Shown here: positions 1,258-12,929 of the stretch, in pieces | How positions within the stretch are numbered: position 1 is the first letter of the stretch | Layout: every line of letters starts with the position of its first letter | Assembly: GCA_021443285.1 (NCBI GenBank) | Contig: JABUUG010000014.1 | Span: 28,018 to 41,106 of the forward strand | Direction of reading: 5' to 3' | Length of the DNA stretch: 13,089 nt | Source of the DNA: Bacteroidaceae bacterium | GTDB taxonomy: Bacteria; Bacteroidota; Bacteroidia; Bacteroidales; Bacteroidaceae | Translations under genes and position numbers: made by a program | The notes under the pieces: model-generated | The model's input: only the letters and a program-made list of their open reading frames with translations | Databases searched by the model: none | Told to the model about the DNA's origin: nothing

Positions 1258-3612
1258 CTACATGTCTTTTTCGATGTATGTGAACTTCGTGCGCCCTATG
1301 GTGAAGCTTGCTCCGTGGGTCAGTGTCACGGGGGTGTCGTGTTTCAGTTCGCTTCCGTTGAATGTCATGCCCGGCTCCAAGGCGGTCAGCATCAGCTTGT
1401 TCCGGTGGTTTTTCGATATTCTTGCCATGAGTGGCTCTATGGGCGACTCTGTGTCCCAGTTTATCTGCAGGTCGCAGTCGATGGAACGGCCGAGCGTGAT
1501 GAACGACCGCTCGTTTGTGCGCAGGAGCTTGAATATAGCTATGTCCATCTCCTTCGTCTGTCCCGTAACGTGGAGGTAGTAGCAGGCGGAGAGGCGTTTC
1601 GGCGTGGCGAAGGTCAGTCCGAGTCCTATGATATACACGCAGCAGGATATCAGGTTGAGGTCAAACAGCATGAGTATCCGTGAACTGAGGGCGAAGAGGT
1701 AGATGCAAAGCACTGCCGCTACGGTTGTCATGACGGCGCCCTTGATGATTTTCGCCCGTGAGATATGCATCACGGTGCTGATGCCCCAGATAATCAGGAG
1801 GTTCACCACGAGATATGGTATCCAGTCGAACCAGAAACTGGTGGTGTATATGTTCAGGTATGTGGATATCAGTGCGAAGCCAAAGCTGACGTTGTAGCTG
1901 ATGAATCCGAATAAGACAAGGTGGGTTATGAGGAAGAACATGTTTCTGGATGCGAGTGGCTTTTCGGCAAGCATGAGGTGGAGATAGCAGACAAGAGTCA
2001 TTACCTGCCATGCCAGAAAATCGGGCATGCTGAAACATTTCCCGGCGTATGTGTTAAGGAAGAATATGTCTTTCGGGTTGTCGAGTGAAAGGTCGAACAT
2101 TCTGCAGACGATGGCATAGATAAAAGTGTCGTCTTTATCCCTGAAGATGCAGTAGAGAGTGAATGCTACAAGTGCGGCGAGAAGGCCGGCTATGATCCAC
2201 GTCATCAGGTATGAGGCGTTCTTAGGGTCGAAGATGTTGCGGCGGTTGTAGTAGTGGCTGCTCTGGTGGTTGTGGTATCCGTGTTCCGGGCATTTGCATC
2301 CGTTCTCCTCCCAGCAGTCGAGGTGCATCTGGTGCTTGCAGTTCGCCACGATGGTGTCGCCTTGCTTGAACTCATCCTTGCAGTAGCAGCATCTTTCTGC
2401 GACGAGGTTTCCCCCCGCCGACATGTTGGGGCCGGTGTATGTATATACGTTTTGCTTGTACCACAGCATGTATTTTATGTATGGTATGACAAACTGCATC
2501 ATGATATACACGATGAGTATCACTGTCAGGATGAAGATGAAGTTCGCCTTCGTCTTTTCCCACAAGCTTTTTACGTTTACTACTATCGGGCGATAGACTG
2601 TGCCAAGGGAGTAGGTGGTTTCTCCGGAGGCGATGATGCTGTCGTTGTATGTGATGTCGAGCTTGAGATTTCTGTCTATGCCGGCGTATCTCTTACCGTC
2701 AGGATTCTCACAATACAGGATGTAGTCAGGGTCGCTTTCTTTTAGATTGGTGATGAACGACGTGATGCGCGAATTCTCCAGACTGTCAAGATATATGCCT
2801 TTGGTTTTTTCCGTCAGAGCCTTCATCAGCACCTCTGTCTCCTCTATTTCCTCGTCTGGCACATTGCCCATGTCTATGTATGAAATGACAGGCAGCGGTT
2901 CGTCGGACTCAAGGAGCTCTATGAGCTGGTCTTCATCGGAGATATGGTCGGGGTCAAGGCTTTCGTCCGTCTCATCATTGTAGATTCTGCCGTCGGAGAA
3001 TACGAGCAGGCGTGAATTGCCGCGCATGTTTTCCGGTATTGTGGAGACGGTGTTCGTGACAGCCTTTATAAGGCTCTTGCGTTCGCTGCCTGTTGAGACG
3101 AGGTCTTTGTGTATGTGTGAGGCCTTTATGGACAGCGGGGGCATTGTGGTGTTGCCGTTGAATGTGGCGAGATAGGCATTCTTGCCAAAGACATCCGAGC
3201 ACCGGTCTGCAAGTATTGAGATCTTTTCGAGGCTCTGCTGTTCAAGAGTAAGGTCAACGAGAAGAATAAGGCGTTCGCCTGACTTCTGGATGGAGTCTCT
3301 GAGAACGAAGTCGTATGAAAGTATTTGGGGATCATCGATTGTGCTGAATGTCAGTGCTCCTATTCGGTTTTCTGTCATCAGGAGTCTTATTTTGTCTTTC
3401 TTTGAGACAGAAAGCAGCAATGGGTCGAGATCTCCGCCAATCTTCACTCCAACGTTGAAGTGCTTGTAGTCGTTGTCTTTGAATTCCGGCTCAAATATCT
3501 TTATGTTTTGTTCCTCTCCGAGCAGAGCGGAGAGTTCCGATTCCATGTCATCGCAGGCGACGAATGTGGCTGCCGCAAAGATTGCAAGAAATATTCTGAA
3601 CATTAATTTCAT
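1258..3612 (-). CDS. Membrane RING-H2-like E3 candidate with lipobox, vWA and FHA domains
   Basis: I chose the ATG at 3612 because the frame upstream (to 3711) is only repeat sequence, while this start gives a signal sequence with a lipobox (FVAC, Cys20). The protein has 784 residues. Domains in order: vWA-like, about 114-287, with a MIDAS-like DLTLE (Asp120) and FSDG (Asp207); TM1, about 356-378; RING-H2-like zinc site, C408-x2-C411-x13-C425-x-H427-x2-H430-x2-C433, closing with C439/C441 and H444; six further membrane segments, about 468-670; FHA, about 704-782, with GR (708-709), S733, H736 and NG (752-753). Counting segments places the vWA outside and both RING and FHA in the cytoplasm. 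RING domains recruit charged E2s and FHA domains bind phosphothreonine. With a Ubl and an E2 in the same operon, a membrane E3 role is the natural inference. A purely structural T6SS anchor remains possible. Confidence 0.82.
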   Translation of the reverse strand: MKLMFRIFLAIFAAATFVACDDMESELSALLGEEQNIKIFEPEFKDNDYKHFNVGVKIGGDLDPLLLSVSKKDKIRLLMTENRIGALTFSTIDDPQILSYDFVLRDSIQKSGERLILLVDLTLEQQSLEKISILADRCSDVFGKNAYLATFNGNTTMPPLSIKASHIHKDLVSTGSERKSLIKAVTNTVSTIPENMRGNSRLLVFSDGRIYNDETDESLDPDHISDEDQLIELLESDEPLPVISYIDMGNVPDEEIEETEVLMKALTEKTKGIYLDSLENSRITSFITNLKESDPDYILYCENPDGKRYAGIDRNLKLDITYNDSIIASGETTYSLGTVYRPIVVNVKSLWEKTKANFIFILTVILIVYIMMQFVIPYIKYMLWYKQNVYTYTGPNMSAGGNLVAERCCYCKDEFKQGDTIVANCKHQMHLDCWEENGCKCPEHGYHNHQSSHYYNRRNIFDPKNASYLMTWIIAGLLAALVAFTLYCIFRDKDDTFIYAIVCRMFDLSLDNPKDIFFLNTYAGKCFSMPDFLAWQVMTLVCYLHLMLAEKPLASRNMFFLITHLVLFGFISYNVSFGFALISTYLNIYTTSFWFDWIPYLVVNLLIIWGISTVMHISRAKIIKGAVMTTVAAVLCIYLFALSSRILMLFDLNLISCCVYIIGLGLTFATPKRLSACYYLHVTGQTKEMDIAIFKLLRTNERSFITLGRSIDCDLQINWDTESPIEPLMARISKNHRNKLMLTALEPGMTFNGSELKHDTPVTLTHGASFTIGRTKFTYIEKDM

Positions 3613-3639
3613 GGAGTGAAGATTATGGGTGGGTTCTGT

Positions 3640-3812
3640 AAATTGGAAGTTATAGGAAGTTAAGGGACATTTTCTTTTTGGAGTTAAGGAAGTTAAGGGA
3701 GTTAAAGACATTACCTGTTGGGGGTTGTTCAGTTAGTCATCAGATAAAAAGTCATTTGTCTTTAACTCCTTTTAACTCCCTTAACTCCTTTAACTCCTTT
3801 AACTTCCCAATT
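3640..3812. repeat. Dispersed stem-loop repeat, copy B (inverted)
   Basis: It begins AATTGGAAGTTATAGG and ends CTTTAACTTCCCAATT, so the ends are inverted repeats. The arms consist of 9-bp GTTAAGGGA-like units. The core at 3707-3760 (54 bp), read on the minus strand, starts GACAAATG and ends GGTAATGTC, matching copy C, so this copy lies in the opposite orientation to A and C. It occupies most of the 208-bp gap between the coiled-coil anchor gene and the RING gene, the widest gap in the downstream half of the operon. Confidence 0.82.
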
Positions 3813-3820
3813 ATTAGAAG

Positions 3821-4654
3821 TTAGATCGTTGGGATGTCGTTGTTGTTCTGTTTTACCATATCCTGGTATTTCTTCATGGCATTCTTGGCGTCCTTGGCAG
3901 CCTTGAATTTTGTTATCATCATGTTGAAGAACATGAGTATCATTGCCACTGCTCCCAGCCCAATCAGGTAGTTCTTGGCGCGGTCGATGAATGGCTGGTA
4001 TGCAAGTTCCTGTATCTGTTTTGAGATTGCTGAAACCTTTATGTATGTATTCTCCGCTTTTGCGAATTTCTCCTTCAGTGCGGGAAACTGCTCTGCGCCC
4101 TGCTTGGCAGTGTTGTAGTACTGCGTGAGTTCCTCAAAGTGAAGCTTCTCTGACGCTTTAAGCTGTTCCAGCTGCGGTGTGCCTTTCTTGTGGAGGGAGA
4201 GTATCTGTGCCTTTTTGTAGAGGGAGCGGTATGCCGCCTCCTCGCCGTCGAGCTTTTTGAAGATGTTGTTCACGGCGTCTTTTGCGCTTGCTGTCTGCTT
4301 CTGCTTTTCTATGGCGTCCTTGAACTGCTGTGTCAGTGCGGGGAACTCTGTCAGCAGGTTCAGTATCTCTGTCTGGTCTTCGGTGATGAACGGCTTGTTC
4401 ATCTCCACTGTCATGTCCCATTTCTGCTGGTAGAAGCTGATGTTCTGCTCTGCCGACTCCATGCGCCTTTCGGACATGTAGGGGACAGACGACACCAGTT
4501 CGGACACATTGTTGAACAGCGAGTCGAGCAAGGTGAGTATCTCCTGCTGTTTCTTCACGGTGTCAACGGGTGCGGCGTTTTGCCCACCGGCACTCTGCCC
4601 GCTGGCGTTCAGACCGGCAAGAAATATTATGGCGATAAGCAGCAGCCGTCTCAT
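3821..4654 (-). CDS. Secreted coiled-coil protein with C-terminal membrane anchor, unknown family
   Basis: This 277-residue protein is not a family I recognise. It has a signal peptide (about 1-19, ending ASGQ), then a long charged, helix-rich region (about 35-225) with leucine-rich heptad-like stretches that should form coiled coil, a single membrane segment (about 229-248) and a short basic cytoplasmic tail (249-277). It contains no cysteine. The predicted topology is periplasmic stalk with the tail inside. Its ATG overlaps the TGA of the upstream gene as ATGA, which suggests translational coupling and possibly a complex with that periplasmic protein. Type VI systems of Bacteroidetes use their own membrane proteins (TssN-TssR) instead of TssJLM, so a membrane-complex role is plausible, but I cannot assign it to one of those families from sequence alone. 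Confidence 0.85.
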   Translation of the reverse strand: MRRLLLIAIIFLAGLNASGQSAGGQNAAPVDTVKKQQEILTLLDSLFNNVSELVSSVPYMSERRMESAEQNISFYQQKWDMTVEMNKPFITEDQTEILNLLTEFPALTQQFKDAIEKQKQTASAKDAVNNIFKKLDGEEAAYRSLYKKAQILSLHKKGTPQLEQLKASEKLHFEELTQYYNTAKQGAEQFPALKEKFAKAENTYIKVSAISKQIQELAYQPFIDRAKNYLIGLGAVAMILMFFNMMITKFKAAKDAKNAMKKYQDMVKQNNNDIPTI

Positions 4655-5871
4655 TTCTCCATGTATTTGTTAAGTGAGTTAACAGCCTTGTGGAAGAGGT
4701 CTCTGGTTTTCTTTTCTGACGATGTCAGCACTCTCGACTTCTTCAGCATGTCGTTTCCGTCGGCAATGGCCATGCGCGCCACCTTCATCAGGTCTGCCTT
4801 CTCGTATGGGTCGGTAGTGGTAACGAGGCGCACCTTGGTGCCGTCCATGCTGCGTATCAGCTTGAGCATGCTCGGTATGTCGAGTGGCGGTTTGCCCGCA
4901 TTCTCCTTGGCCTCTATCTCCGCCGGTGTCGGTGGCGGTGCCACATAGACGCATTCCATCTTGTTCATTGCGTCGAGTATGGCGTTGTATTCGCCGTAGG
5001 CTGCAAGCAGGTCTGAGCAGATGTGCCACAGCGGCTGGAGCTTCCTTTTGGCGAGCACTCTTCCCTGCACCTCGTTGAACATGTCTGCGCCGCCTTTCGA
5101 CGGTTGCTTGTTGAAGTTCTGCTGCATCGTGGCGAGCAGTGTGGAGTCTTTCCTCAGCTCAGCCAGCTCATTCCTCATTATGTTCACTGTGTCCTTGTAG
5201 AGGAAGCAGGTGTCGCGCTGCACGGTGATGCGGTATTTCTGGTCGGAACGCACCATAAGCAGGTTCTGTACCTGCATACCCAGTATCCTGCGCTTGTTGC
5301 GCTGCATGCCCAGAATATCGCCGAGCTGCATGAACACGTCCTCGTGTATGTCCTTTATGGTGAAGCGCTGCTCTATGGAGTCGTTCTCCATGTTCTGTAT
5401 GGGCTGCTGCACGGGGAACATACCGTAGCCCGTAACCCATGGCGTGAAGCTGTAGCCGTCGCGCGGTGTGGGTATCAGTTCGCGGAAGTCCTTCTTCATG
5501 CGGTAGTAGGTGTCCAGGTCGTAGCTTACGGGGTAGGGCATACGCTTGGGGTTGAACAGCCTTATCCACAGTGCGCCCTTGGCGATGTGCTTGTAGCGCA
5601 CGGGGGCGGTAAATCCGAGAATGCTGCCCTCTGCGTCGGGCTTCTTCACGAGTCTCACCACCACATTGTTGTCGGCGTCGGAGAACATCACCTTCAGTGT
5701 AGCCTTGAGTTCAGGGGTGCCGCCGAGGCTTATGTCCTCTGTGTATATGAGGGTGTCGCCGATGGTTATGTCCTTCGTCACCGACGGTGCCTGCGCATGG
5801 CCTGACAGCGATAGCAGGGATATGCCGGCGACAATCAGCAGCAGTGTTTTCAGATATATTCTTTTCGCCAT
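4651..5871 (-). CDS. Periplasmic protein of unknown function in the T6SS/Ubl operon
   Basis: The 406-residue product starts with a clear signal peptide (1-27, cut after AQA) and has no other membrane segment, so it should be periplasmic. The first half is beta-rich with many aromatic residues (about 35-220). The second half is helical and charged (about 225-300 and 335-406), with a proline-rich linker near 311-331 (VAPPPTPAE). Cysteines are at 222, 285 and 307. I do not recognise the family. It starts 16 bp after the E2 stop and overlaps the next gene by 4 bp, so it is tightly linked to the Ubl/E2 pair although it acts on the other side of the membrane. I infer a part of the envelope-spanning portion of the machine. 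Nothing in it looks enzymatic. Confidence 0.85.
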   Translation of the reverse strand: MAKRIYLKTLLLIVAGISLLSLSGHAQAPSVTKDITIGDTLIYTEDISLGGTPELKATLKVMFSDADNNVVVRLVKKPDAEGSILGFTAPVRYKHIAKGALWIRLFNPKRMPYPVSYDLDTYYRMKKDFRELIPTPRDGYSFTPWVTGYGMFPVQQPIQNMENDSIEQRFTIKDIHEDVFMQLGDILGMQRNKRRILGMQVQNLLMVRSDQKYRITVQRDTCFLYKDTVNIMRNELAELRKDSTLLATMQQNFNKQPSKGGADMFNEVQGRVLAKRKLQPLWHICSDLLAAYGEYNAILDAMNKMECVYVAPPPTPAEIEAKENAGKPPLDIPSMLKLIRSMDGTKVRLVTTTDPYEKADLMKVARMAIADGNDMLKKSRVLTSSEKKTRDLFHKAVNSLNKYMEK

Positions 5872-5887
5872 TTCTTTGGTTGTTGTG

Positions 5888-6406
5888 TCAGTATCCGTTG
5901 TTTAGGAACCATTGTGCCACTTTCAGGTCTTCCGGATACGGAGGTTCGTTTTTTGCGTGGTACAGGCTGTAGTTTAGGTATTGCCTTATCCTGTCAACAG
6001 CCCATGCCAAGGATGCGTAGCTGTCGGGGAAGTTCATGCACACATACCCGGCAAAGGCGCCGAAGTAGCGGATGTTGGGGTGCCAGGGGTGTGCTATGGG
6101 GCGGTGGCTCTCGTCGTGGACAAGGAAGTTGAACTGCGGCATGGCGTCTATGCAGGGGTAGGATGGCGGGATGTCTATGGTCATCAGGAACCTGTCGGCA
6201 TAGACGGGCTTGCATACTGCCCCTTCCTCGTTCAGGTGTTCTATGTCGGTTACCCCGCACATCGCCCTTATGTTGTATATGATAAGGTATCGTGTGGGGA
6301 TGCCGCCCTCTTCTGCAAGCACCTGCATCTCTATCTGCTCTCGTGCGGAGACCAGAGTGCGCAGCTGGGTGTATTCGTTGTTTAGCCGTCTCAGTCTTGG
6401 GGTCAT
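5888..6406 (-). CDS. E2-like ubiquitin-conjugating enzyme homolog
   Basis: The 172-residue protein follows the E2 (UBC) fold order. A helix lies at 1-30. Strands follow with a Pro-Tyr-Pro turn (MTIDIPPSYP, 75-84), like the FxxxFPxxYP of eukaryotic E2s. Next come HPN at 109-111 and GYVCMNF with Cys123 in the catalytic position. The C-terminal helices include a NEPPYPED segment (153-160), comparable to the PNPxxPL stretch after the active site. The spacing from His109 to Cys123 is 14 residues, four more than in typical E2s. E2 enzymes carry the Ubl as a thioester on this Cys, and the HPN Asn supports isopeptide formation. The product has no signal peptide, so it is cytoplasmic. It starts 24 bp after the ubiquitin-like gene. 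An inactive E2 variant is less likely because both HPN and Cys are kept. Confidence 0.85.
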   Translation of the reverse strand: MTPRLRRLNNEYTQLRTLVSAREQIEMQVLAEEGGIPTRYLIIYNIRAMCGVTDIEHLNEEGAVCKPVYADRFLMTIDIPPSYPCIDAMPQFNFLVHDESHRPIAHPWHPNIRYFGAFAGYVCMNFPDSYASLAWAVDRIRQYLNYSLYHAKNEPPYPEDLKVAQWFLNNGY

Positions 6407-6430
6407 CGGTCAGCCTGACGGGGTGTTTCC

Positions 6431-6751
6431 TTATCCCGGGAACGGGTCCGGCACTACGAATACGGTGTCGCCGTTCTGCACGTTGTAGTCCCTGAGGTTC
6501 TGGTCTTCGTGTCCGATGCGCGGACGCAGCACGCGCAGCTCGTTTATCATCGTGTCCTCCTTGCCGAAGAAGTAGTCCATCGGTGCGCCCGTCTTGTCAA
6601 CGGAAGGGAAGTCGAATATCACTCTGCCGTCCTTGCCTACGGCGTGCTTGAGGTTCTGCATCAGCGTGCTGAGCGGAGCGTCGGGGTTCTGTACGCGGAA
6701 CTTTATGGTACGGTCCTTATACACTATGTTAAGGAAGAATTCTTCGTCCAT
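6431..6751 (-). CDS. Ubiquitin-like beta-grasp protein with native C-terminal glycine
   Basis: The protein has 106 residues. It starts with a beta hairpin (FFLNIVYKDRTIKFRV, 5-20), then a helix (27-38) and further strands. Its region 86-100, LRDYNVQNGDTVFVV, aligns without gaps to ubiquitin LSDYNIQKESTLHLV with seven of fifteen residues identical. The chain ends PDPFPG, so the last residue is a free glycine and no maturation peptidase would be needed before activation. An insertion at about 48-80 separates the middle strands and makes it longer than ubiquitin (76). It begins 24 bp after the tssF stop and is followed by the E2 gene, a classic partner pairing. Ubls of type VII secretion (YukD/EsaB) work without conjugation, so a structural role is the alternative. 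The terminal Gly and the E2/RING neighbours favour conjugation. Confidence 0.82.
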   Translation of the reverse strand: MDEEFFLNIVYKDRTIKFRVQNPDAPLSTLMQNLKHAVGKDGRVIFDFPSVDKTGAPMDYFFGKEDTMINELRVLRPRIGHEDQNLRDYNVQNGDTVFVVPDPFPG

Positions 6752-6775: not shown

Positions 6776-8482
6776 TCAGTTTATGGTTATTTCCACCCTT
6801 ATGGGGAAGAGGTTCAGGCTTCTCACCTCTATTGACTTTGCAATCTCCGTCTCCACCTTCCGGATGTTTTCCTTGAAGTTCGACTGCAGGTATCTGTTGT
6901 CTGTCAGGGAGATTTTCACGAGTATCTCGTACATCGCCTGCCGCCATTCCTTCTGTTTTTCGTGTGTGATGCTTATCCTGTCCACCATGAAGCTGCCTAT
7001 GTCGTAGCGTGTGGTCAGCTCTGTCAGGCAGAAGATGCGTATGTCGGCGGGTGTTACGAGGCGGTTGTGTGTGGCGAGGTGGTATTTCACCAGCTGCTTC
7101 TGGTGGCGGCTGGCGTTCACGGTGTCCTTTCCCGGCACTGGCCTGCCCACCAGCCTTATGCTTTGCTGGTCGATCTCTACGGGAGCGTTGAAGCGCACAT
7201 CACCGTTCAGCGCCTCGTTTATGCTGGCGCCGGAGGTGGTGAGGTAGTCCACGTTCAGCTGTGTGGACTCCGAAATCTTGTTCTGCTGCGAACGGATGGT
7301 CAGATAGACTCCCGGAATAAGGTCGCTGTTCTTCTCTTCCAGGTTCTTTATCAGGCTGTTGAGCAGTATGTTTATGCGGCGTAGGGTGGCGGAGCTGTCC
7401 TGCGTGTTGAACATCTGGTAGGCGTAGAAATCGGAGTTCAGACGGTCTGACAGCGTGTGTATCATGTCGGCGAGGTCGAGCGATGTGAAGCGGTCTGAGC
7501 GGAGGCTCCTCACCTGCACGTCCATCGACTCGAACAGCTGCTCGTCGGATGGCAGCAGGAGGTGCATGAACTGCTTCCTTATCGTCATGCCCTTGCTGTT
7601 CTTTATGTCCGTTATTCGGGCCACGGGTGTGCTTGGCGACAGCACTACCGACTCTATGTCCACGTTGGCGAGCACCATGGTGTTCAGTCTCAGGTCTCTG
7701 GAAGAGAATGAGAACTTGTCTGAGATATTACGGAACTCGAACACGAGTCTCATCTCATAACCGGGTTCCACTCCGTAGTCTGCCTGGTCATAATTGTCGA
7801 AGACGAACACCCTCTGGTTGCAGCGCAGGAACTGGCTGTAGCACAGGTCGATAGAGTTTTGCGTCAGCTTCTGGTTGTATATGCCCACATCTGTGGAGAG
7901 TATCTGCGAGACGGGCAGGTTGAATGAGTCCCAGGGCTTTATCAGTGGCAGTTCCTTGCCGTTGCAGTACACCGTGAGGTCCTCGAAGTCGGTACGGGTG
8001 ATGGCAAACGACATGCCGCTGAGGGAGGTGATGGGCATCGTGGAGTTCAGCGTCACTGTCCAGCGCAGTCCGTCGGTGCGGGTAACACCCTTCAGCGTGG
8101 CGTTCACGACGTTCGTTACGAGTATCGGGCGGAACGATGTCGGCAGACCGTTTATGTTGAACACCTTCTGCTCATCCATCCTTACGGAGTCTATGCCGTC
8201 TATGGCGTTGCACTCTATGACGAGCGATGCGGGCGTTGCCTTCGTGAGATAGTCGGGAACGAGCATCCGCACAAAGTCCTTGACAACATCCTTCTTTATC
8301 TCGTTTATGTCGCGGTCGATGCGGTTCACCTGGTGGGCGATAGCCATGGTGAGCAGTGAGAAGATGGGGTCGTTCTCCATGCCTTCCAGATAGTCGGCGT
8401 GGGGCGAGTTGCGCCAGATGGCGAGTGCCTCGGCAAGCATCTCCTTGGCTCGTTGTCGGGTTTCGTATATGTTCTGGTCCAA
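6776..8482 (-). CDS. tssF: TssF-like T6SS baseplate protein
   Basis: The 568-residue product carries the typical TssF N-terminal region: a helix with ENDPIFSLLTMAIAHQVNRIDRDI (about 36-59), then KDFVRMLVPDYLTKATPASLVIE (68-90), which matches the DPxxERLxEAxAFL ... LYPxYLxPxPS layout of TssF. TssF and TssG form the wedge of the contractile baseplate in the cytoplasm, related to T4 gp6/gp7/gp53. The length is close to the usual 560-620. The start is a TTG at 8482. The frame is closed upstream by a TAA and no ATG lies between, while the first ATG inside is codon 15. The next gene, encoding the Ubl, starts 24 bp downstream. The downstream part is divergent, as usual for Bacteroidetes T6SS. Confidence 0.82.
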   Translation of the reverse strand: MDQNIYETRQRAKEMLAEALAIWRNSPHADYLEGMENDPIFSLLTMAIAHQVNRIDRDINEIKKDVVKDFVRMLVPDYLTKATPASLVIECNAIDGIDSVRMDEQKVFNINGLPTSFRPILVTNVVNATLKGVTRTDGLRWTVTLNSTMPITSLSGMSFAITRTDFEDLTVYCNGKELPLIKPWDSFNLPVSQILSTDVGIYNQKLTQNSIDLCYSQFLRCNQRVFVFDNYDQADYGVEPGYEMRLVFEFRNISDKFSFSSRDLRLNTMVLANVDIESVVLSPSTPVARITDIKNSKGMTIRKQFMHLLLPSDEQLFESMDVQVRSLRSDRFTSLDLADMIHTLSDRLNSDFYAYQMFNTQDSSATLRRINILLNSLIKNLEEKNSDLIPGVYLTIRSQQNKISESTQLNVDYLTTSGASINEALNGDVRFNAPVEIDQQSIRLVGRPVPGKDTVNASRHQKQLVKYHLATHNRLVTPADIRIFCLTELTTRYDIGSFMVDRISITHEKQKEWRQAMYEILVKISLTDNRYLQSNFKENIRKVETEIAKSIEVRSLNLFPIRVEITIN

Positions 8483-8554: not shown

Positions 8555-9004
8555 TTAATTCCATATATTGTATGAAGTGTAGAGGTTGAACTCCGAGTCG
8601 TCGGATTTCTTCTGCGCGTTAATGGTGATGTATATTTTCTTCTCCAGCCTGATGTGCGTCATGGACACCTTCACGTTCGTGAGTCTCGGCTCGTAGCGGT
8701 CGATGGCGCTTTTCAGTTCGGAAGCGAAGGTGTTGATGTTCTTCGACGTGCCGGATATTTTCTCCTTGTAGAGGTAGTTCATGTCGATTTCGGAGTCTGC
8801 CGCCGAGTCGCGTATGGTGCCGTTCTGCTCATCGAAAATCTCGAAGCGCAGGTTGTTGAAGATGAAGCCGAAGTCGGGGTCGGTGATGATCGAGCCTACG
8901 GGAGTCGTTATGAGCAGCTCCAGATTGTCGCGTATTCCCTCGTCCTCAGTGGCGGCGCGCTCCACGCGGTTGTTGCGTATGTCTAATGGCAGGCGGATGT
9001 CCAT
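8555..9004 (-). CDS. tssE: TssE-like (gp25/GPW family) T6SS baseplate protein
   Basis: The 149-residue protein matches the gp25-like fold. It has RDNLELLITTPVGSIITDPDFGF (about 25-47), equivalent to the segment that ends in the PEFG motif of T4 gp25 and TssE, and AIDRYEPRLTNVKV (about 100-113), equivalent to the conserved IxxxEPRL stretch. TssE is the baseplate component that starts sheath assembly, in the cytoplasm. The length is normal for the family. The start ATG at 9004 lies directly after a repeat block that fills the gap to tssK. The order TssK-TssE-TssF supports the assignment. Confidence 0.88.
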   Translation of the reverse strand: MDIRLPLDIRNNRVERAATEDEGIRDNLELLITTPVGSIITDPDFGFIFNNLRFEIFDEQNGTIRDSAADSEIDMNYLYKEKISGTSKNINTFASELKSAIDRYEPRLTNVKVSMTHIRLEKKIYITINAQKKSDDSEFNLYTSYNIWN

Positions 9005-9188: not shown

Positions 9189-10391
9189 TTATATGTCCGG
9201 CATGAACAGGTCTTCCACTTCCTCCTGTTTTATGTGCAGTGCTTCGAAGAGTGCGTCGTAGAGCTTTTGGTAGAGTTCGTCGTACAGCTCCGGATATAGC
9301 TTGTCATGCAGCGCAGGCTCCAGTTCCTCCTTCAGCACGCCATATAGCTTGTCGTGCAGCTCGGTGCGCAGCCTCTCCATTGCCTCGGCGAACTCTGTGG
9401 AAATCCTGTCGTCTATCTGCTGGCGGAACTGTTCGCTCAGCTCTTCCGTTATCTTCGTCTTGAGCTCCTCGTAGAGCGAGTCGTGGATTTTCGGCGTCAG
9501 CTCCGCCTCCACCTCCTCCTTTATCTCGCGCTTCAGCTTTTCGAGGTCTATGCTGTCGTCTACGATTGGGGTGACGTCGAGCTTCGCTATTGCCGAATCC
9601 TGCAGCACATCCACGAAGTCGTAGTAGGTCTCCATATCAACAGTGTACAGCAGCATGTCCATCTTTGTGAAGTCCTCAGGGGCGTTATCCAGAACATGAC
9701 ACTGCAAATGGAGCATGTATTCCTTCAGGAGCATGTACGACATTATCGTAACGTCGAACTCTGTGCACGCCGCCATACGGTTCACGCAGCTTGCAAGCGG
9801 CACGAAGTGCTCTTTGGGCAGGTTCGGGTGTCGCAGTATCTCATGAGCCTTTTCGATGACTCTCTGTATGAGCTGCATTATTCTTTGGTCGCTCTGTGCT
9901 ATAAGGCATGGCGGGATATATTCCTCACAGAAGGTCAGACGGTTGCCGTTCACGTTGATTTTCTTCAGCGGAAGCATAAGGCCCTCTTCGGCTATCACCT
10001 CTCCATACGACAGTATGGCGTACTTATAGGCCGAGCGTGTGTAGGGAAGTCCTTTCGACTCAAATTCTATGGTCTTGTCGCTGACACCCACGCAGAAATA
10101 GTAGTCGCCAGGCATGACGGCGGGGATGTCTATCTCCACCCTTTCGTCTGGATCCACGTTCATTCCGTTGGCAAGTATTGCTGTGCAGCGCAGACGCTCC
10201 ACAATCAGCTTGCCGGCAGAGAAGACAGCGTTGCACTCACATTTCGTGCCGGCCACCAACCCCACCATGCCGTAGTTCGTCAGGTTTGTCAGCGTCACAA
10301 AGCGACGGTTGATGTCGTTGCTCAGGGTCAGTAGAAACTCAGTGGTAAGTTTCGTGCCTGGCTTCCAGTGTAATTTTGCGTTAAGGTCCAA
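9189..10391 (-). CDS. tssK: TssK-like T6SS baseplate protein with C-terminal coiled-coil extension
   Basis: The 400-residue protein opens with LHWKPGTKLTTEFLL (7-21), the divergent form of the TssK start (VxWxEGMxLxPQHF). A beta-rich shell region (about 30-155) and a helical middle (165-265) follow, as in TssK. TssK links the TssFGE wedge to the membrane complex. The last third (about 282-392) is unusual: almost continuous charged helix with repeated ELY, KLY and EEL units such as HDKLYPELYDELYQKLY, expected to form a coiled coil. The start is a TTG at 10391. The frame has an in-frame TGA upstream and no ATG, and an A-rich leader precedes the TTG. The gene is followed by a repeat-filled gap before tssE. 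Assignment rests on the N-terminal motif and the neighbours, because Bacteroidetes TssK proteins are divergent. Confidence 0.75.
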   Translation of the reverse strand: MDLNAKLHWKPGTKLTTEFLLTLSNDINRRFVTLTNLTNYGMVGLVAGTKCECNAVFSAGKLIVERLRCTAILANGMNVDPDERVEIDIPAVMPGDYYFCVGVSDKTIEFESKGLPYTRSAYKYAILSYGEVIAEEGLMLPLKKINVNGNRLTFCEEYIPPCLIAQSDQRIMQLIQRVIEKAHEILRHPNLPKEHFVPLASCVNRMAACTEFDVTIMSYMLLKEYMLHLQCHVLDNAPEDFTKMDMLLYTVDMETYYDFVDVLQDSAIAKLDVTPIVDDSIDLEKLKREIKEEVEAELTPKIHDSLYEELKTKITEELSEQFRQQIDDRISTEFAEAMERLRTELHDKLYGVLKEELEPALHDKLYPELYDELYQKLYDALFEALHIKQEEVEDLFMPDI

Positions 10392-10460: not shown

Positions 10461-10490
10461 ATTGCGGCAGCAAACCATTCACTGTTTATT
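10461..10490. repeat. Fragment of the tssK-tssE repeat at the tssG 3' end
   Basis: The plus strand reads GCGGCAGCAAACCATTCACTGTT, close to GCGGTAGCAAACTATTCACTATT at 9145-9167. The fragment includes the tssG stop codon (10486-10488), so the repeat supplies the gene's terminus. The rest of the 94-bp tssG-tssK gap shows only an A-rich leader for tssK. Confidence 0.65.
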
Positions 10491-11244
10491 TTATTCTCGC
10501 ATTGTAGTCAGCATAGCTCTCCTCGCTCACGCCCTCCACCTCTATAGAGAATTTCACGCAGAAGGGTATGAACCATTCGCGCAGGAAGTCCTCCAAAGGC
10601 TGCATCAGGGCGAAGAACTCTTGCAGGGAGTCCTCGTCCATGTCGTTCTTCTCAACCATCATCACCAGCCACATTATCGAGCACTCGTTCGACTCTTCGA
10701 TGCTGTAGTGCCGCTTGTCCATGCGCACAGGCTGTTGTATCATTGTTGAGAGCAGGGAGCACAGCTTGCCGTAGTCGCCCCTTATCATCTCCACAAAGGG
10801 CAGCAGTTTGGCGTAGTTCTTCACAAGAGGGTTCTCTATCTTGTTCAGGTTAATGTCGAACAGTTCGCGCAGCACGATGTTGAGCCTGTCCTCAAGGATA
10901 CGCGTCATCTCACGTTCCACCTTCAGGTTCTCGCGGAAGAGTATGGTGTCGATGGGGCAGAAGAAGCTGCGCAGCATATTCAGCCTTGCGTGCAGCTTCT
11001 CCCACTGGTTCTGGCGGTCGCCCATGCGCAGCAGGTTCTCGCCCCCAATCATGCCTTCCGGCATCAGCGAGAGCACCGAGTCGCGCGAGACGTGAATCTC
11101 GTTTATCTCAGGGAACACATTCAGCACGTCGGCGTTATAGTTACGGTAGAACGTGCCGTCGCAATACACCGCCCAGTCGTCATTCTTCTCCGGGAAGAAC
11201 ATGTTGAGCAGGAATTCCGCCTTTATCTCAGGGATGTATAACAT
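10486..11244 (-). CDS. TssG-like T6SS baseplate protein (tentative)
   Basis: This is the first gene of the operon, coding for 252 residues. There is no signal peptide or membrane segment, so it is cytoplasmic. Recognisable but weak TssG-like traits are a middle helix followed by MIRGDYGKLCSLLSTMIQQPV (about 163-183), comparable to the TssG segment where a short helix precedes a strand ending in a PV pair, and a C-terminal REWFIPFCVKFSIEVEG (about 222-238), like the final strands of the family. TssG forms the wedge with two TssF copies. Position next to tssK, tssE and tssF supports the call. The length is shorter than in proteobacterial TssG (about 300-350), as expected for a reduced Bacteroidetes form. 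It could instead be a Bacteroidetes-specific baseplate accessory protein. The ATG at 11244 is preceded by an untranslated leader of about 75 bp from the predicted promoter. Confidence 0.55.
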   Translation of the reverse strand: MLYIPEIKAEFLLNMFFPEKNDDWAVYCDGTFYRNYNADVLNVFPEINEIHVSRDSVLSLMPEGMIGGENLLRMGDRQNQWEKLHARLNMLRSFFCPIDTILFRENLKVEREMTRILEDRLNIVLRELFDINLNKIENPLVKNYAKLLPFVEMIRGDYGKLCSLLSTMIQQPVRMDKRHYSIEESNECSIMWLVMMVEKNDMDEDSLQEFFALMQPLEDFLREWFIPFCVKFSIEVEGVSEESYADYNARIK

Positions 11245-11521: not shown

Positions 11522-12139
11522 TTACCTTATATAGTTTGTGGACACAGGCTCTTCCCTTACCGGCAGCTCTGTGCCGCAGAGGTTCTTCAGCATCCATGCC
11601 ATGTTCTGTGCGAGTGTGCGCATGGTCTGCATACCCTCCTCGTCCTGTACAGCCTCGCCGATGGTGCGGCCGTGTACACTGTTCCAGTACTGCGATGAAA
11701 CCACTGGCATGCAGTTGATGGTGAAGTATTTGTTCAGGCGGTCGAAGGTTGCGCTCGCTCCGCCCCTGCGGCATACTGCAACCGATGCGGCGGGCTTGTA
11801 GCGCAGATGCTTGCCGTGGCTGTAGAACAGGCGGTCGAGGAAGGCGCACAGCGCACCGTTGGGGCCGGCATAATAGACGGGAGAACCGACGATGATGCCG
11901 TCGCACTGCTCAACCTTCTTCTCAATGCGCGTCATCACCTCGTCGCGGAACACGCAGTGCCCTTTCTCCTTGCAGCTGCCGCAGGCGGTGCAGCCCTGCA
12001 TAGCCTTGTTGCCAATCCACTCGATGTCTGTCTCAACGCCGCACTCATTCAGTTTGCGTGCCGCCTCGCTCAGTGCGAGAAACGTGTTCCCCTCTTTGCG
12101 GGAACTGCCGTTAATAAGTAATACTCTGTGATTTTCCAT
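11522..12139 (-). CDS. Iron-sulfur flavoprotein / NADPH-dependent FMN reductase family
   Basis: I chose the ATG at 12139 because the frame continues upstream only into non-conserved sequence and MENHRVLLINGSSRKEGNT gives the family N-terminus. The 205-residue protein has the flavodoxin-like FMN phosphate loop GSSRKEGNT (11-19) and the second FMN site GSPVYYAGPNG (85-95). A compact cysteine cluster, C50-x2-C53-x2-C56-x5-C62, is typical of iron-sulfur flavoproteins that pass electrons between a 4Fe-4S cluster and FMN. It acts in the cytoplasm. The physiological partner is unknown, and roles in oxidative stress or quinone/disulfide reduction are known for relatives. It appears separate from the T6SS operon, since a hairpin and a new promoter lie between them. 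Confidence 0.85.
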   Translation of the reverse strand: MENHRVLLINGSSRKEGNTFLALSEAARKLNECGVETDIEWIGNKAMQGCTACGSCKEKGHCVFRDEVMTRIEKKVEQCDGIIVGSPVYYAGPNGALCAFLDRLFYSHGKHLRYKPAASVAVCRRGGASATFDRLNKYFTINCMPVVSSQYWNSVHGRTIGEAVQDEEGMQTMRTLAQNMAWMLKNLCGTELPVREEPVSTNYIR

Positions 12140-12201
12140 AGCTCTATGTTTTTGAAATGTTTCTCCCTGATGATTGTGATGCCCTCTAACTTCCACTGGT
12201 T

Positions 12202-12269: not shown

Positions 12270-12929
12270 TCAAGAGATAGTAAACCTTGTTTTTTCTTTC
12301 GTTTTCTCCACATCGGGCATTGTTTCGAGGTGTTTTCTCAGTTTGGCGTCGCCCCAGTCGAGTTTCACGGCAGTTTTGAGCTTGGCTGTGGAGATTTTCT
12401 CCACATTATTTAGGACTTCCATGATAGATGCATTTATGCGTTCTACCTCTTTTTGCTCAGGTGTTTTCAGGTCTTCTTGCGAAAGGGAAACTGCAGCTCC
12501 CTGAGAATTAACAGGTTTTGCTCCCTTTTGTATAAGTGTCTCATCGCGGCCTCAATCCACGTGCTGTTCTCCTGACGTTCTGGCGCAATGTACATTATCT
12601 TTATCTTGCCGTCCAAGGCACGCTGAATGGTTGGGTCGTTCTCCTCGGCTGCTTGCTCGGAATTGATGTATGCAGCGGAAATGCCTTTCTCACAGAGGTT
12701 GCGCACTTGGTCGCGCATGAGTGCGATGAGGGGAGAAAAGATGACTGTCATACCAGGGAATTGCGTTGCAGTAAACTGGTAACATAATGATTTACCCAAG
12801 CCGGTACGCTCAATCATAAGGATGCGTTCCCCACGAAGAATGCGCTCAATAGCAGTCCACTGCTCATCGTAAAAAACGGTCTATACCGAATATCCTTTTC
12901 AGTTCTGTTTCCGCCTCATGTCTTGTCAT
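12270..12929 (-). pseudogene. RecQ-family DNA helicase remnant, frameshifted and internally deleted
   Basis: From the ATG at 12929 the frame reads MTRHEAETELKRIFGIDR and then stops at 12864, after a run of six T (six A at 12871-12876 on the plus strand). With one T fewer it continues YDEQWTAIERILRGERILMIERTGLGKSLCYQ, where TGLGKS is the Walker A motif of RecQ helicases. Then come FSPLIALMRDQV (motif Ia) and MYIAPER. After STWIEAAMR (about 12540) this frame gives only unrelated residues to a stop at 12467. The sensible reading switches back to the first frame, with an acidic, helix-rich tail containing KLDWGDAKLRKHLETMP, ending TGA at 12270. The DExH box and motifs III-VI of a normal 600+ residue helicase are missing. 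So both ends of one gene seem fused by an internal deletion, plus two frameshifts. That the tail comes from the same gene is an inference. Confidence 0.75.

Follow-up and report, generated by a model that had tools for sequence, protein, structure and literature searches.

A complete set of genes for a predicted ubiquitin-like conjugation cascade is linked to a variant type VI secretion system in Bacteroidales

Control by ubiquitin-style tagging is known mainly from eukaryotic cells. Among bacteria, the Bil antiphage system, said to have been described by Hor et al. in 2024, reportedly combines an E1, an E2, a ubiquitin-like protein (Ubl), and a JAB protein. Prokaryotic E1-E2-RING-JAB systems were reportedly described by Burroughs, Iyer, and Aravind in 2011, in a paper whose abstract reportedly also suggests that YukD-like Ubls might be conjugated. 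For the type VI secretion systems (T6SS) of Bacteroidota, excerpts of a survey of complete genomes (PMC10781749) present subtype iii as the only type in the phylum and its component TssN as nearly ubiquitous, with a cytoplasmic domain described as ubiquitin-like. We analyzed a stretch of 13,089 nucleotides (G000:C55:28018-41106, hereafter the window) from a 77%-complete Bacteroidaceae genome bin (309 contigs, 2.56 Mb in total). The window contains a T6SS baseplate operon that also carries genes for a Ubl, an E2, and a membrane protein with a RING domain, and the presence of these Ubl-conjugation genes within the operon is confirmed. The genome bin contains every gene of the cascade (E1, Ubl, E2, and RING), and these genes are conserved and tied to T6SS through deep divergence. 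We consider it probable, at roughly two chances in three, that they form a dedicated membrane-anchored Ubl cascade that acts on a variant Bacteroidales T6SS and docks or licenses it; conjugation, substrate, topology, and an effect on firing are the parts that we infer.

The operon lies on the minus strand and encodes, in the order of transcription, TssG-like, TssK-like, gp25/TssE, and TssF-like proteins, the Ubl, the E2, two envelope proteins of 406 and 277 residues, and an 817-residue RING protein. From the TssF-like gene onward, the intergenic gaps are 24, 24, 16, -4, and 109 bp; a sequence-only reading of the window had described the Ubl, E2, envelope, and RING genes as following tssF on the same strand, which this order and spacing bear out. 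The features are given below in window coordinates, with homologues from G388 and from the bins L004 (G393, Prevotella), L005 (G394, Muribaculaceae), and L006 (G395, Muribaculaceae).

10486..11244, minus strand: TssG-like baseplate protein, 252 amino acids; homologues at the equivalent place in L004 (E 9.7e-45), G394 (2.4e-52), and G388 (1.1e-6).
9189..10391, minus strand: TssK-like protein, 400 amino acids; Pfam T6SS_VasE E 0.02 (below cut-off); homologues in T6SS clusters.
8555..9004, minus strand: TssE/gp25 baseplate wedge, 149 amino acids; GPW_gp25 E 9.1e-11 (above cut-off), NCBIfam VI_zyme E 2.5e-8 (below).
6776..8482, minus strand: TssF-like baseplate protein, 568 amino acids; L004 homologue E 1.3e-110; homologues in T6SS clusters.
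6431..6751, minus strand: Ubl, 106 amino acids, with PFPG at the stop codon; AlphaFold2 model, profile match, and conserved C-terminal Gly.
5888..6406, minus strand: E2 (UBC fold), 172 amino acids, with HPN at 109-111 and Cys123.
4651..5871, minus strand: 406-residue protein with an N-terminal hydrophobic segment (hydropathy); homologues at the equivalent place in L004 (E 3.3e-29) and G394 (2.9e-27).
3821..4654, minus strand: envelope protein, 277 amino acids, with an N-terminal hydrophobic segment and one transmembrane segment (TM) at 230-248 (hydropathy); homologues in L004 (E 1.7e-34) and G394 (1.6e-40).
1258..3711, minus strand: polytopic RING protein, 817 amino acids, with an N-terminal exported region, TM 391-409, RING 441-480, more TMs, and FHA 738-806.

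Among the operon proteins, Pfam is firm for gp25 only (E 9.1e-11). Because the scores of the ubiquitin-related domains fell below cut-off, the domain calls of the sequence-only reading required other tests. Its Ubl with a beta-grasp fold and terminal Gly holds up: the AlphaFold2 model has a predicted local distance difference test score (pLDDT) of 90 with the elements in ubiquitin order, the Ubl profile matches ubiquitin sequences, and Gly stands at the stop codon in all eight T6SS-linked Ubls and ends 120 of 120 homologues among the matches listed (best 120 of 679). The proposed E2 was likewise borne out by a UBC fold in the predicted structure and by HPN and a catalytic-position Cys that are invariant in all 26 sequences aligned. 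The motif from HPN to VC recurs in 119 of the 120 E2 homologues listed (best 120 of 423), the exception being a protein of 147 residues; named relatives include Bacteroidales bacterium, Prevotella, Muribaculaceae, and Alistipes. Longer frames overlap the Ubl genes in G393 and G388 and, in G242, the E2 gene. NCBIfam and PHROGs returned no informative name for the Ubl, the E2, or the 406- and 277-residue proteins. No match to the E2 was found in 50,697 phage and 72,556 plasmid records, and a phage or plasmid origin was rejected on that basis.

Six zinc ligands of the RING are invariant in the eight sequences aligned and the last pair is variable, while RING Pfam models stay below cut-off throughout. 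A vWA domain was found in the homologues from G046 and G459, and hydropathy marks the RING protein as the sole polytopic one among the recognised proteins of six clusters examined and the window. Together with weak FHA and RING matches in Pfam, these results uphold the earlier call of a membrane RING-vWA-FHA protein. Hydropathy is further compatible with a cytoplasmic location for both RING and FHA and a periplasmic one for the vWA-like region. Translation may in fact begin at the ATG of codon 34 (about 3612), in which case the protein would, by reading, open with a lipoprotein-like signal that ends in FVAC. The FHA part matches NCBIfam TagH at E 0.0017, far below cut-off. TagH/Fha of proteobacterial T6SS receives phospho-threonine input via FHA, and by analogy the FHA domain suggests such an input here. 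We also observed, by reading, a Ser/Thr kinase-like gene near the G388 cluster. DxSGS, the canonical vWA metal-site motif, is readable in the RING homologues of G046 and G016 and not readable in those of the window and G393-G395, the group in which no JAB was found (see below).

The E1 stands directly before the TssG-like gene in L004 (ThiF, E 1.3e-50), L005, and L006, bins that were located via the E2 alone, and the rest of the operon is as in the window. The window genome encodes an E1 of the same family (362 amino acids, ThiF E 2.8e-52) on contig C251, where its neighbours read as rpsA and dapB. Residues C147, C150, C166, C235, and H238 are invariant in nine of nine E1 sequences; C147, C150, C235, and H238 probably form a zinc site, and C166, judged by its position after CxxC, is the probable catalytic (transthiolation) Cys. 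The closest PDB relatives by sequence include MoeB, UBA7, SUMO E1 subunit 2, and yeast Uba1. G388, G178, and G046 additionally encode a membrane protein that carries a JAB domain, with Pfam above cut-off in G178 and below it in the other two, and the JAMM motif is intact in all three. Across the nine genomes searched, JAB was found in five: G388, G242 (on a third contig, C76), G178, G046, and G016. An E2-like gene adjoining a JAB protein with intact JAMM was also seen at G575:C14 32293-33766 (L061), amid apparent housekeeping genes; the 20 kb examined held no match for E1, Ubl, or RING, and G575 (E2 match E 5.2e-7) was not counted as a cassette genome. When compared with PADLOC, the window Ubl, E2, and RING protein and the G388 E2 match no family, the E1 matches 33 families broadly, and two of three JAB proteins match JAB models weakly. 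Membership in a PADLOC defence family was rejected, the matches coming from the E1 and those two JAB proteins alone.

The linkage to T6SS extends well beyond the window. In G178, G388, G046, G393, G394, and G395, the E1, E2, Ubl, and RING genes share one cluster with homologues of ClpV, TssC, Hcp, VgrG, gp25, and TssF; Hcp and VgrG also accompany the cassette in G242. The set is split over three contigs in G242 (C30, C2, and C76, the RING search covering the two contigs taken) and in the window genome (C55, C251, and C299), where TssC (E 7.6e-103) and ClpV lie on C299. TssB was named by position and homology, and simple open reading frame picking missed it in G393, G395, and the window genome. 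TssC was found in eight of nine cassette genomes tested; this count, like those for TssN and TssO below, leaves out G459 and G553. Among 393 genomes of the order, E2 occurs in six and TssC in 18, and five of the six E2 genomes have TssC (hypergeometric P 6.6e-7, a guide only since the genomes are related). A sample of 365 genomes of the phylum held E2 in four (that of the window, G459, G553, and a weak match in G575). Overall, 8 of 11 cassette genomes have a T6SS.

In the window, as in the six clusters, the TssG and TssK genes adjoin directly. The 252-residue protein is named TssG-like from its position; a Pfam search with it gave no match, and the family of its G388 counterpart matches proteins of 313 and 315 residues near tssK-tssN in ordinary T6SS loci (E 4.3e-5 and 2.1e-11). 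The Prevotella homologue of the TssK-like protein matches T6SS_VasE at E 0.0016, also below cut-off. The TssF-like protein itself has no Pfam TssF match, and its L004 homologue matches TssF at E 0.0034, again below cut-off. The 406-residue protein, probably exported, found no match in Pfam. TssK homologues occur in five of the six clusters; the 361-residue protein at that place in G046 differs: it matches the TssK found at TssN-type loci (E 3.7e-65) but not that of the other cassette clusters. With ordinary-type TssK, the whole cassette, a JAB, and no TssN found, G046:C129 14327-37803 looks like an apparent intermediate.

The trees speak to the age of this association. Ubl-type rows in the TssC tree (17 rows) require two changes, where shuffling gives 5.9 and none of 500 shuffles needed so few; one of the two is G258, which groups with G388 and in which E2 was not found. 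The E1 tree (11 rows) and the RING tree (10 rows) place the three cassettes outside T6SS on one side (100/98 and 100/99). The branch order is alike in E1, RING, and TssC, the last read from the TssN side: G046, G388, and G178 (joined by G242 in the E1 tree), followed by G000 together with G393-G395; support at several inner forks of the E1 and RING trees is only 79-92. This likeness implies that the link between cassette and T6SS is old. The window genome groups with G393-G395 in all three trees (E1 100/100; RING 100/100, the order inside being open; TssC 100/99), which argues against mis-binning. With few rows, the trees are a strong indication of a single old association with later loss rather than repeated chance insertion. 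The proposal that the Ubl, E2, and RING genes belong to the T6SS baseplate operon and are not accidental neighbours is thus sustained by TssC in five of six E2 genomes and by congruent trees. Of the checks on folds and neighbourhoods, models supported the UBC and beta-grasp folds and the genome survey supported the neighbourhood; for RING, the support came from the six conserved zinc ligands.

TssN (PF17555) was not found in any of the nine cassette genomes tested, in a search whose controls were also blank. The TssN model gave eight genomes above cut-off among the 393 of the order and 14 at E 0.001. Seven of the 18 TssC genomes have TssN above cut-off, none of them with E2, and six have neither. 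TssO was found in none of the nine cassette genomes, all five TssN genomes tested, and none of three others. TssR was found in none of the nine with a model that recovered only two of the five TssN genomes. Completeness is 94-99% for G388, G178, and G046, 77% for the window bin, and 68% for G242. At least the cassette loci L004-L006 come from bins, unlike the complete genomes surveyed in PMC10781749. In G308 and G100, tssN adjoins tssK. We also observed two membrane proteins (502 and 391 residues) upstream of ClpV in the window genome (G000:C299 14874-17991, L038), unmatched among the proteins of the other clusters (phmmer, E 1e-3).

Cassettes also occur outside T6SS, at the following places.

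G459:C65 80001-113000 and G553:C11 605000-634000: cassettes linked to genes of the extracellular contractile injection system (eCIS) type (L056-L060).
G016, C685 1548-27000: cassette (L026, L027) accompanied by another Ubl-like protein and an additional JAB.

G459 and G553, from one genus in another order of the class, carry an AAA-type gene, E1, Ubl, E2, JAB, and RING beside a PAAR gene (by Pfam in G459 and by reading in G553) and eCIS-type genes. Sheath, tube, and eCIS_core proteins lie on the opposite strand in G459, the eCIS_core protein having a calpain domain, and two long proteins of G553 read as eCIS_core. Their Ubls end in VPG and VPGGK. The G016 cassette (E1-Ubl-E2-JAB-RING) adjoins SrfB (E 1e-213) and SrfC (E 1.8e-139), its Ubl has a tail of four residues after IAG, and TssC was not found in that genome. 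SrfBC loci may therefore use a Ubl pathway.

Taken together, the genes could act as follows. The E1 would adenylate the C-terminal Gly of the Ubl, which would then be passed by thioester from E1 Cys166 to E2 Cys123. Seated in the inner membrane, the RING protein might then recruit the loaded E2 and guide transfer of the Ubl to a lysine in some T6SS protein on the cytoplasmic face of the membrane, the likeliest substrate being a baseplate subunit or an associated envelope protein. The tag might dock or license the baseplate at the membrane, replacing the TssN hub of the ordinary Bacteroidota T6SS, and the membrane JAB, where present, could remove it. Among the possible effects of such a tag, namely docking in the role of TssN, licensing of firing, or marking spent machines for removal, docking or licensing is probably what the cascade does at the inner membrane. 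The sequence-only reading, which is supported overall, had offered two options. The first, tagging of a baseplate, anchor, or effector protein to control assembly or firing, would be the likelier function; recognition of incoming attacks is less well supported.

Several observations weigh against a cascade dedicated to the T6SS. The E1 of the window genome sits on another contig of a fragmented, 77%-complete bin. The window matches in Pfam are below cut-off for ubiquitin (0.051), UQ_con (0.098), Prok-RING_1 (0.0099), and FHA (0.019), and by reading the RING zinc ligands are not kept in G459. No JAB was found, among the nine genomes searched, in G000 or its three closest relatives G393, G394, and G395, which form one group in the trees; reversibility is therefore not general, although some known cascades do without a JAB. 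Taken by itself, the exclusion between E2 and TssN in the 18 genomes with TssC falls short of significance (P 0.054). G258, G247, and G331 have TssC, yet neither TssN nor the cassette was found, and a T6SS can therefore be without TssN even where there is no cassette. These three were the genomes inspected among those with neither TssN nor E2 (G239, G270, and G273 were left out), and their loci perhaps represent another way of anchoring or controlling the Bacteroidota T6SS. Ser/Thr kinase-like genes were noticed near the T6SS loci of all three (G258:C1 329-357 kb, G247:C4 48-68 kb, and G331:C146 7-29 kb). Homology of the Ubl with TssN was rejected (hhalign probability 0.07), leaving an analogy of fold alone. 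Finally, conjugation and the choice of substrate are proposed from sequence and models, which hold no pointer to the substrate.

Two other explanations, both improbable in our judgment, deserve weighing. The Ubl, E2, and RING protein might be a structural scaffold at the junction of baseplate and membrane that works by no covalent transfer, the role proposed for the Ubl domains of EccD and TssN. Excerpts of PMC10781749 discuss a part as non-covalent hubs for the Ubl folds of EccD, in the type VII secretion system, and of TssN, and YukD is reported as not conjugated (PMC1779556). A scaffold, however, would not need an E1 with a conserved Cys166, an E2 with Cys and HPN, a Ubl with Gly at the stop codon, or, in the basal lineages, a JAB with intact JAMM. 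At similarly long odds, the cassette might be a Bil-like immunity or defence module that came to reside in a T6SS island, where it would mark tail-like machines of foreign origin or detect attacks arriving at the envelope. It would find a parallel in Bil, which puts a Ubl on the central tail fibre of phages (PMC12948488, in excerpt), and in the cassettes that G016 carries without TssC and that G459 and G553 carry next to eCIS-type genes. Yet the cassette is interleaved with the tss core and inherited together with TssC, which sets it apart from a defence island; PADLOC has no match for its Ubl, E2, or RING protein, and the phage and plasmid records have none for the E2.

The remaining two explanations are far less plausible. 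Export of the Ubl or the whole set as an effector against bacteria or host cells has a counterpart in a ubiquitin-like protein that Bacteroides fragilis secretes and that mediates antagonism (PMC5705921, in excerpt), and T6SS loci do carry effectors, but hydropathy finds in the Ubl, E1, and E2 no hydrophobic segment fit for an export signal, the genes are placed among baseplate genes, and the RING protein is membrane-integral. Incidental adjacency, with an old cassette beside T6SS genes acting on other envelope proteins, would suit the E1 apart from the operon in the window genome and the G016 cassette without TssC, but is hardly compatible with a linkage held through deep divergence and with TssC in five of six E2 genomes (the P value of 6.6e-7 being uncorrected for relatedness).

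At the margin of the window and beside the T6SS operon, positions 2-1105 together with L001 17165-19100 encode a large protein whose receiver-like domain falls just short of the cut-off (E 1.5e-6) and whose remainder reads as PEP-synthase-like. Past an FMN reductase gene (11522-12196), positions 12467-12817 hold an apparently truncated DEAD/DEAH helicase fragment of 116 residues.

If a dedicated Ubl cascade does act on this T6SS, a bacterial secretion machine would have a built-in E1-E2-RING pathway of eukaryotic type, and bacterial Ubl conjugation would gain a defined cellular job beyond antiphage defence. It would also help to account for how T6SS without TssN reach the envelope, and the cassette would offer a compact system for direct tests of a bacterial membrane RING ligase. 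A more ambitious version, which we regard as tentative and on balance doubtful, is that a whole branch of the Bacteroidota T6SS is docked or licensed by covalent Ubl tagging, with the RING protein as anchor and ligase replacing TssN together with a free Ubl, and that, as the eCIS cassettes would indicate, contractile injection machines repeatedly use Ubl conjugation as a layer of control. A literature search, covering titles and abstract openings with subscription papers and preprints mostly outside it, found, among the papers listed, none that describes T6SS or eCIS loci with a Ubl-E2-RING module, which does not show absence from print.

Among known systems, the prokaryotic E1-E2-RING-JAB systems reportedly share a cascade with RING and are not known to adjoin T6SS or eCIS genes. 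The SrfB/SrfC loci have the E1-Ubl-E2-JAB-RING set beside them in G016 and differ in that the genome has no TssC. According to excerpts of PMC7159879, the vWA-MoxR FtsH ternary systems likewise keep JAB, E1, and RING as separate genes and have a Ubl-E2 protein; there the Ubl is joined to E2 and to EAD1, caspase-like effectors are present, and the system is not a secretion machine. T6SS subtype iii, as described in excerpts of PMC10781749, shares TssC (PF17541), Hcp (PF17642), ClpV, VgrG, gp25, TssF-, TssG-, and TssK-like proteins, and in some loci DUF4280; in place of its TssNQOPR membrane complex, of which TssN and TssO were not detected here, the cassette loci have the E1, E2, Ubl, polytopic RING protein, and other envelope proteins. 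Bil shares the E1, E2, and Ubl, and the JAB with the basal members, and because it tags a phage tail protein it is a precedent for a bacterial Ubl placed on such a protein (PMC12948488, in excerpt). The present cassette differs from Bil in its E2 and Ubl, unmatched in PADLOC, its E1 with broad matches, its added membrane RING protein, and its place among the genes of the cell's own contractile machine.

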